A stretch of 64,000 bases of DNA from Natrarchaeobius chitinivorans (GTDB lineage: Archaea; Halobacteriota; Halobacteria; Halobacteriales; Natrialbaceae). Below the pieces are notes generated by a model. The model searched no databases. It saw only the letters and a list, made by a program, of their open reading frames with translations, and was not told the DNA's origin. Positions 45,110-47,246 of the stretch are shown one piece after another (the stretch's first letter is position 1; the number at the start of each line of letters is the position of its first letter). The stretch spans positions 248,001-312,000 of the forward strand of contig NZ_REGA01000003.1 of NCBI RefSeq assembly GCF_003841505.1, read 5' to 3'. Position numbers and translations under genes: made by a program.

Positions 45110-45673
45110 ATGAGCAAGATCACGTTCCGCGCGGACGACGACCTCGTCGAGGAACTCGAGGCCCTCGAGACGTCCAAAAGCGAAGCGATGCGCGAGGCGC
45201 TCAGGTCGTACCTCGACGCGCCGTCCGAGAGCGAGCGATCGCCGGAACGTGACTCTCAGGAGACGGCGATCGACGACCTCGTCCGCGAACGCGTCGACGA
45301 TCTGCTCACGGACCGCCTCGAACCAGTCGACAGGACGCGTCGTACACACGCACGCGAGCCACAGGACGTCAACGTCACAATCTCGCTCGAGGGGGTCGAC
45401 GACCGAGCGGTCGAGACGACGAACGAACGCGAACGAGTGCCGCCGTCGGACGGCGACAGACGAGTCGGTACTCCAAACCCCGGCTCCGGCGGAACGCAAT
45501 GCGGCCAGTGCGGGGAACACGTCGACGACGACCACGTGTACTGCCCGAACTGCGGCGAAAAAGCCTCACACCGCCTGTTCTGTGAATGTGGTGACGAACT
45601 CCGATCCGACTGGGCGTTTTGCCCGAGCTGTGGCCGTCGAACGCCCGCTGCGGACGTCCTCGAGTCGGGGTAG
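45110..45673 (+). CDS. cdrL: RHH plus double zinc-ribbon protein, cell division regulator long form
   Basis: A 187-aa protein. The N-terminal ribbon-helix-helix (1-43) is SKITFRADDDLVEELEALET and SEAMREALRSYLD. A charged linker follows, then two zinc ribbons: CGQCGEHVDDDHVYCPNCG and CECGDELRSDWAFCPSCG. Position and architecture match CdrL of the conserved haloarchaeal cdrL-cdrS-ftsZ2 locus. It probably binds DNA through the RHH domain. It is separated from cdrS by 206 bp that hold the GTAAGAC boxes. Confidence 0.85.
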   Translation: MSKITFRADDDLVEELEALETSKSEAMREALRSYLDAPSESERSPERDSQETAIDDLVRERVDDLLTDRLEPVDRTRRTHAREPQDVNVTISLEGVDDRAVETTNERERVPPSDGDRRVGTPNPGSGGTQCGQCGEHVDDDHVYCPNCGEKASHRLFCECGDELRSDWAFCPSCGRRTPAADVLESG

Positions 45674-45691
45674 TACGAATCGACGAGTGTC

Positions 45692-45861
45692 GTAAGACGT
45701 TGAAAGTCACGTCTGACGATAGTTTTATTACCCTTGCCACTATTCCGTTTATTCGCGTAAGACGATTGTCTTACAACGGCGAGGAAATGGCGAAAACGTG
45801 CGAACCAGGTCCTCTCCAGCGTAAGACACGCTGCGTCTGACAGGGGCGCGCGACGTCTTAC
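45692..45861. promoter_or_regulatory. Cluster of GTAAGAC/GTCTTAC boxes in the cdrL-cdrS gap
   Basis: Box positions are GTAAGAC 45692-45698, GTCTGAC 45711-45717, the perfect palindrome GTAAGACGATTGTCTTAC 45757-45774, GTAAGAC 45821-45827, GTCTGAC 45835-45841 and GTCTTAC 45855-45861. TTTTATTA (45723-45730) is a TATA box; a start about 26 bp downstream falls at the palindrome, so binding there would block initiation. The likely ligand is CdrS or CdrL (RHH proteins bind such repeats). Binding is inferred. Confidence 0.75.
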
Positions 45862-45879
45862 CCACAGGGGAATACAACA

Positions 45880-46059
45880 ATGGAGCGTGTGACACTGCGA
45901 ATTCCGAAACAGCAGATCGAGGAGGTCGAACAGCTCGTCGATTCGGGTGAGTTCCCGAACCGAAGTGAAGCAATCCGGTCGGCAGTACGCGAGATGATCA
46001 ACGAACAGTACGACGGACAGACCGAGCAGACCGGCAAACGAACGTGGGCCAAGGTGTAA
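45880..46059 (+). CDS. cdrS: Ribbon-helix-helix cell division regulator, short form
   Basis: A 59-aa RHH (CopG-like) DNA-binding protein. The beta strand is [10 protein letters not shown], helix 1 [15 protein letters not shown] and helix 2 [17 protein letters not shown]. The tail ends TGKRTWAKV. In Halobacterium and Haloferax CdrS is a transcription factor controlling ftsZ2 and other division genes. Its stop is 2 bp before the ftsZ2 ATG, so they are co-transcribed. Confidence 0.93.
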
Positions 46060-46061
46060 CG

Positions 46062-47246
46062 ATGCAGGATATCGTTCAGGACGCCCTCGAAAACGCAGAA
46101 CAGGAGGCCCGCGAGATGGACGCCGAACTCGACGACGACGAGTTCGGTGATCCACGAATCGTCATCGTCGGCTGTGGCGGTGCCGGGAACAACACGATCA
46201 ATCGTCTGTACAATATCGGCGTCGACGGTGCCGACACCGTGGCGGTCAACACGGACAAACAGCACCTGAAGATGATAGAGGCCGACACGAAGATTCTCGT
46301 CGGCAAGTCGCTGACGAACGGACTCGGTGCGGGTGGCGACCCGTCGATGGGCGAACGCGCCACCGAGATGGCCCAGAGCACGGTCAAGGAGGTCCTTGGG
46401 GATGCGGACCTCGTCTTCGTGACCGCGGGCATGGGTGGCGGTACCGGGACCGGTGCGGCACCGGTCGTCTCGAAGATCGCCAAAGAACAGGGTGCGATCG
46501 TCGTCGGCATGGTCTCGACGCCATTCAACGTCGAGCGTGCCCGGACGGTGAAAGCCGAGGAAGGCCTCGAGAAGCTGCGCGAGCAGGCCGACTCGATCAT
46601 CGTCCTCGACAACAACCGGCTGCTCGATTACGTCCCGAACCTCCCGATCGGCAAAGCGTTCTCGGTGATGGACCAGATCATCGCAGAGACCGTCAAAGGT
46701 ATTTCGGAGACGATCACCCAGCCCTCGCTGATCAACCTGGACTACGCGGACATGTCCACGATCATGAACCAGGGCGGCGTTGCGGTGATGCTCGTCGGCG
46801 AAACACAGGACAAGAACAAGACCAACGAGGTCGTCAAGGACGCGATGAACCACCCGCTGTTGGACGTTGACTATCGCGGCGCTTCGGGCGGACTCGTCCA
46901 CATCACTGGCGGTCCCGACCTCACGCTGAAGGAGGCCGAAGGCATCGCCGATAACATCACCGAGCGCCTCGAGGCCTCGGCGAACGTCATCTGGGGCGCG
47001 CGTATCCAGGAGAACTACAAAGGAAAAGTGCGCGTGATGGCGATCATGACGGGGGTCCAGAGCGCACAGGTGCTCGGCCCGACGACGCAGAAACAGGCCG
47101 ACAAGTCGCGTGCGAGCATCGAGGGGCTGAACGAGGCAGACTTCGACGCGAGCAACAACGTCGAGTCGAACTCCGGGTTCGGTGCCCAGAGCGACGGCGG
47201 CCGCGAGGAACTCGAGAAACAGAACGGCGTCGACGTCATCCGATAA
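46062..47246 (+). CDS. ftsZ2: Cell division protein FtsZ2
   Basis: A 394-aa tubulin-like GTPase that assembles in the archaeal division ring. The tubulin signature [12 protein letters not shown], the N-terminal [17 protein letters not shown] and the T-loop regions are intact. The opening [15 protein letters not shown] and the linkage with cdrS identify it as FtsZ2, the paralogue needed for constriction in Haloferax, rather than FtsZ1. The C-terminal tail (from about 340) is variable and acidic. I use ATG 46062 rather than the earlier 46044. Confidence 0.95.

Follow-up and report, generated by a model that had tools for sequence, protein, structure and literature searches.

A conserved, near-single-copy palindrome and its flanking boxes as putative operator of cdrS-ftsZ2 in Halobacteria

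The cdrS-ftsZ2 operon of Natrarchaeobius chitinivorans follows cdrL on the same strand, and the gap between cdrL and cdrS holds a series of short repeated boxes; the question raised by this locus is whether these boxes form an operator of the operon and, if so, which protein reads it. The window considered here is the whole 64-kb stretch of DNA that was analysed. Read directly from the sequence, the gap extends over 45674-45879 (206 bp) and contains seven boxes, namely five exact copies of GTAAGAC/GTCTTAC and two of GTCTGAC, which are arranged as three pairs (spacers of 12, 4, and 7 bp) and one proximal single box (Table 1). The initial annotation had counted six boxes; the gap, the box and palindrome coordinates, and the TATA box at 45723 are as it described them, and the 18-bp palindrome it called perfect is exact, with its arms at 45757-45763 (+) and 45768-45774 (-). 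The GTCTGAC box of the upstream pair is found only in some Natrialbaceae; that of the leader is kept in most Natrialbaceae. The heptamer GTAAGAC/GTCTTAC has 8 copies in the window versus 5.2 expected, and 5 of the 8 lie inside the gap, where ~0.02 would be expected. The palindrome starts ~27 bp past the end of the TATA box and is predicted to overlie the transcription start, as deduced from the position of that box. Short boxes, inverted or tandem, in the promoter region of a gene for a ribbon-helix-helix (RHH) protein mark an RHH operator, and such boxes are present before cdrS; the product of cdrL likewise matches RHH_1, together with CdrL_M and DZR, above the Pfam cut-off.

Table 1. Genes and sequence elements of the cdrL-cdrS-ftsZ2 locus, in positions of the window
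Feature	Position	Strand	Basis
cdrL	45110..45673	+	ORF; RHH domain, CdrL_M middle region, C-terminal double zinc ribbon
Upstream box GTAAGAC	45692..45698	+	sequence
Upstream CdrS-type box GTCTGAC, 12 bp past first box	45711..45717	+	sequence
TATA box TTTTATTA of cdrS-ftsZ2	45723..45730	+	sequence
Putative core operator, exact palindrome GTAAGAC-GATT-GTCTTAC, 18 bp	45757..45774	.	sequence, conservation
Leader box GTAAGAC	45821..45827	+	sequence
Leader CdrS-type box GTCTGAC, 7 bp past preceding box	45835..45841	+	sequence
Proximal box GTCTTAC	45855..45861	-	sequence
cdrS, 59-aa RHH protein	45880..46059	+	ORF; Pfam RHH_1
ftsZ2, second gene of the operon	46062..47246	+	ORF; FtsZ family match over cut-off

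A comparison of the gap across haloarchaea had been suggested by the initial annotation, and for this purpose cdrS-ftsZ2 loci were taken from named haloarchaea and from further genomes within this family and class, while the pattern GTAAGAC-N3..6-GTCTTAC was searched genome-wide in 391 Halobacteria genomes with the same pattern read backwards as the control. Of the 391 genomes, 374 contain the palindrome pattern, with a single copy in 372 and two copies in 2; the reversed pattern matches just 7. Conservation and this control together rule out a chance origin of the boxes. The palindrome precedes cdrS in all inspected loci with an intact upstream region, these being fetched loci from a subset of the 374 genomes, and one copy per genome (372/391) sited upstream of cdrS-ftsZ2 is the distribution by which an operator of CdrL would be recognized. 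In the Natrarchaeobius genome the palindrome is present as a single copy, the next best sites carrying 2 mismatches. A second perfect palindrome is present in only two of the 391 genomes (G304 and G395). Among the 17 genomes without the pattern, 14 have cdrS, and a variant of the element is retained at this gene in every one of the 14. Six of these belong to one family and differ by a 2-bp spacer between intact boxes, and the remaining ones carry changes in one arm. No cdrS was detected in the other three pattern-negative genomes (G082, G297, and G385), which may reflect assembly gaps.

The anatomy of the element is best seen in a non-redundant set of 52 upstream regions that are <75% identical to one another, of which 47 contain the palindrome. 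The box bases are invariant in all 47 and the flanks are variable; the spacer is 4 bp in 38, 5 bp in five, 3 bp in two, and 2 bp in two, a range of 2-5 bp that extends up to 6 bp elsewhere. The 38 palindromes with a 4-bp spacer thus have two 7-bp boxes 11 bp apart, the geometry by which a CdrS site can be recognized. A T/A-rich TATA block is conserved in the 47 regions, 33 to 26 bp ahead of the palindrome; with the usual archaeal spacing it would place the start at or just before the first base of the palindrome, in agreement with the initial annotation, which had placed the palindrome over the expected start. Of the 52 regions, 46 have the proximal GTCTTAC box, which in nearly all relatives sits 19-32 nt ahead of the cdrS start, mostly at 20-28 nt. 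A box upstream of the palindrome is found in 40 of 47 regions, mostly 51-65 bp before the palindrome start and often at 52 bp, which is the promoter edge; a leader box between the palindrome and the proximal box is found in 28 of 47. The initial annotation had taken the box spacing as a sign of cooperative assembly, which for the 7- and 12-bp spacers is unproven; wide conservation is seen only for the 11 bp between the box centres of the palindrome, and in the regions checked this distance too ranges from 9 to 12 bp. The palindrome and its boxes are almost certainly the operator of cdrS-ftsZ2, because they are conserved and the palindrome occurs once per genome in 372 of 391 and is placed over the predicted start; very probably one or both of the neighbouring RHH proteins, CdrL and CdrS, set the level of FtsZ2 through this operator.

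CdrL is reportedly present in all sequenced Halobacteria, and in a divergent haloarchaeon two adjoining CdrL-like open frames lie before cdrS (G142:C81:15720-16626; L349, L352, and L353). The N-terminal strand of CdrS, MERVTLRIP, is identical in 162 of 162 haloarchaeal sequences; the recognition strands carry R3-T5-R7 in CdrS (162/162) and K3-T5-R7 in CdrL (153/153), and are therefore alike, with the main difference at residue 3. From what is known of the RHH fold these residues presumably face the DNA. By sequence, the solved RHH protein nearest to CdrS is NikR (2bj1, E 0.001), which is nickel-responsive and has a metal-binding domain that CdrS is without.

Published binding data bear on both candidate readers. 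ChIP-seq of CdrL-FLAG in Hbt. salinarum yielded one reproducible genomic site, upstream of cdrS-ftsZ2, at a resolution that is region level and not base level; neither of the words motif and palindrome occurs in the main text of that paper (PMC7439475). On this region-level evidence CdrL likely binds the operator. Of the reading first given to this gap, the operator with its RHH-suited geometry stands, and the naming of CdrS as the reader is only partly supported, ChIP pointing to CdrL. In Hfx. volcanii, CdrS-FLAG was located by ChIP-seq at 18 sites, among them ftsZ1 (motif at -50 relative to the start), dacZ (-47), and psmB, with the majority 41-110 nt upstream of the start; Table 1 of that study, which lists the 18 sites, does not include the promoter of cdrS itself (PMC8406309). 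Deletion of cdrS reduces ftsZ2 expression in Hbt. salinarum (PMC7439475), so CdrS acts there as an activator, either directly or indirectly.

Probable sites of CdrS at its ChIP targets can be compared with the palindrome within the same genomes. Upstream regions of ftsZ1, dacZ, and psmB were scored for the best match to GTCWGAC-N4-GTCWGAC (maximum 14) against shuffles. The mean best match is 12.8 of 14 at ftsZ1 promoters versus 9.0 in shuffles (49 regions), and in nearly all cases the site precedes the start codon by 62-66 bp, directly ahead of the promoter; at dacZ the mean is 10.9 versus 8.9 (30 regions), often at -60. The psmB upstream regions of 30 genomes (L295-L324) have no CdrS-type signal (8.9 versus 9.0 in shuffles), so the reconstructed CdrS motif derives from ftsZ1 and dacZ only. 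Since CdrS is ChIP-proven at both ftsZ1 and dacZ and the position fits, GTCWGAC-N4-GTCWGAC probably represents the site of CdrS. None of the 62 CdrS-type sites at ftsZ1 and dacZ contains GTAAGAC/GTCTTAC; the outer left half of the ftsZ1 site reads GTC in 42 of 46, whereas the cdrS palindrome has GTA there and does not match GTCWGAC-N4-GTCWGAC. The same genomes hold two site classes that share a 7-4-7 geometry, GTC-W-GAC at ftsZ1 and dacZ and GTA-A-GAC at cdrS.

An exact-pattern scan of the Natrarchaeobius genome returned just two CdrS-type sites, so the motif is looser than the pattern. An exact CdrS-type site, GTCAGAC-N4-GTCAGAC (L264 1500-1517; G000:C11:38093-38110), is located ~175 bp before a gene for an HtpX-like protease, named by eye from its translation. 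A further exact CdrS-type site, GTCCGAC-N4-GTCAGAC (L263 1502-1519; G000:C2:144910-144927), lies directly before a TATA-like sequence, and the gene that follows resembles methenyl-H4MPT cyclohydrolase (mch), also named by eye.

Outside the haloarchaea, 40 cdrS-ftsZ loci from other families of the phylum, including methanogens, served as an outgroup set, and cdrL was not detected in the ~600 bp upstream of cdrS in these loci. The GTAAGAC class is nearly absent from them (0.08 per 200 bp) and GTCWGAC is frequent (1.9 per 200 bp versus 0.01 in shuffles). Distances between exact GTCWGAC pairs are multiples of 11 bp in 34 of 35 cases in the 28 non-redundant outgroup loci, and looser boxes peak at 11, 22, 33, 44, and 55 bp, where almost none are expected; such a lattice would match the need of an evenly spaced row of RHH dimers, and the RHH protein of the operon is CdrS. 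GTCTTAC occurs in three loci of one outgroup family, and in the one displayed (L211) it is on the lattice with its downstream boxes. Within Halobacteria, a whole-genome search for CdrL gave no convincing match in G146, G356, and G657 (HArc-gm2); around cdrS, the CdrL profile found nothing in G146 and only CdrS itself in HArc-gm2. All three genomes keep the palindrome (L180, L361, and L101), its place beside cdrS having been checked for the G146 and G657 loci, and the site is thus found beyond the genomes in which CdrL is detected. G146 and G356 are 99% complete and belong to one genus, so CdrL was probably lost some time ago. Both the lattice of the outgroup and the CdrL losses speak for CdrS as a reader and against CdrL as the sole reader, and make it plausible that CdrS binds the operator.

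The reading held with moderate confidence is that an ancestral auto-operator of CdrS was retuned in haloarchaea, where CdrL has become a reader and CdrS probably remains one; the like and invariant recognition strands of the two proteins would support such joint use. RHH dimers would occupy the 7-bp boxes, and since the two boxes 11 bp apart lie past the TATA box and over the predicted start, a position that suggests repression, their occupancy would most likely block initiation. The promoter-edge and leader boxes would add further contacts, and the readers would be the adjoining RHH proteins, CdrL and probably also CdrS as the ancestral reader. From the observed sequence, position, conservation, copy number, site classes, and lattice we infer repression, joint use, and which protein takes which box. 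Several results count against this reading: the absence of the cdrS promoter from CdrS ChIP in Hfx. volcanii (PMC8406309), for which occupancy by CdrL might account; the absence of GTAAGAC from all 62 sites at ftsZ1 and dacZ; the region-level resolution of CdrL ChIP; the variable spacer, which is odd for a rigid pair of dimers; and the lowered ftsZ2 expression in the Hbt. salinarum cdrS deletion, which indicates an activator role.

Retention of a perfect palindrome where CdrL is undetected (three genomes, of which two share a genus) and the presence of GTCTTAC at cdrS in methanogens without CdrL make it possible but rather unlikely that CdrL alone reads the GTAAGAC boxes and CdrS acts elsewhere. 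Under such cross-control by the upstream neighbour there would be no CdrS feedback, in keeping with the location of the one reproducible CdrL ChIP site here, the nearly invariable single copy of the palindrome, its outer half-site unlike the CdrS-type sites at ftsZ1 and dacZ, and the omission of the cdrS promoter from the CdrS ChIP sites. A further scenario, itself unlikely, is that an ancient FtsZ operon was self-controlled by CdrS on the lattice and that haloarchaea added CdrL and changed the outer half from GTC to GTA, giving hybrid boxes (GTA-A-GAC) bound by mixed dimers or in competition; if true, these hybrid boxes, through mixed CdrS-CdrL dimers or competition, would separate the control of ftsZ2 from that of ftsZ1. 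The proposal of the initial annotation that CdrS alone reads the boxes and autoregulates the operon is decidedly improbable: the element accompanies cdrS in all genomes examined, the 11-bp box lattice is found at methanogen cdrS, the palindrome is retained without CdrL, and the CdrS recognition strand is invariant, but CdrS ChIP in Hfx. volcanii misses the cdrS promoter, CdrL ChIP finds the region, and the box class is unlike the CdrS-type sites in the same genomes.

The palindrome could also act as RNA: it would form a hairpin at the 5' end of cdrS mRNA, and the leader boxes close to the ribosome site would offer alternative partners for pairing. An earlier study proposed that ftsZ2 is controlled post-transcriptionally (PMC8303175), and the leader folds more stably than its shuffled versions (z -3.3), a score that is however a consequence of box complementarity. 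The arms never co-vary, the boxes being identical in 47 of 47 non-redundant palindromes, several exceptions lose pairing in one arm yet keep a box-like heptamer, and some boxes precede the TATA box and so fall outside a transcript from the cdrS promoter. With no compensatory stem changes in the 47 palindromes and the pattern-negative genomes, a hairpin is rejected as very improbable; a known RNA family for the leader is ruled out by the lack of an Rfam match. An unlinked transcription factor as the reader is hardly credible, for while published CdrL binding resolves the region and not individual boxes, the near-single-copy site adjoins two RHH genes, CdrL ChIP falls at the same region, and the geometry is shared with CdrS-type sites.

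The region bound by CdrL in Hbt. salinarum is the same intergenic region, in the same gene order, as at the Natrarchaeobius locus, and its status as the sole CdrL site (PMC7439475) is in line with the near-single-copy palindrome; the present analysis adds the box sequence, its conservation throughout the class, and the flanking boxes. The CdrS sites of Hfx. volcanii are symmetric and share the 7-4-7 geometry with the motif reconstructed from ftsZ1 and dacZ promoters; they differ from the cdrS palindrome in the outer half (GTC versus GTA) and in being mostly upstream of the start rather than over it (PMC8406309). Among other RHH systems, Omega (ParB of pSM19035) places one RHH dimer per 7-bp box in arrays over its own promoter, in either orientation; however, Omega heptads are contiguous with a 7-bp pitch, whereas the cdrS boxes have an 11-bp pitch and are also scattered (PMC9499535). 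AmrZ is an RHH activator and repressor that represses its own gene by binding its own promoter, but it is a bacterial regulator with another sequence, and the passages cited mention no second RHH partner (PMC3325190).

The CdrS/CdrL system is already known, and a description of the boxes was not found in the searchable literature; the new details appear to be three: an operator kept across the class in near-single copy, the distinction between this operator and the CdrS-type site, and the 11-bp lattice of methanogens. A near-single-copy operator across the class names the exact bases to mutate and predicts the proteins that would bind them. It would also set the switch of FtsZ2 apart from the CdrS sites at ftsZ1, and the methanogen lattice suggests that CdrS feedback on the FtsZ operon predates the haloarchaea.
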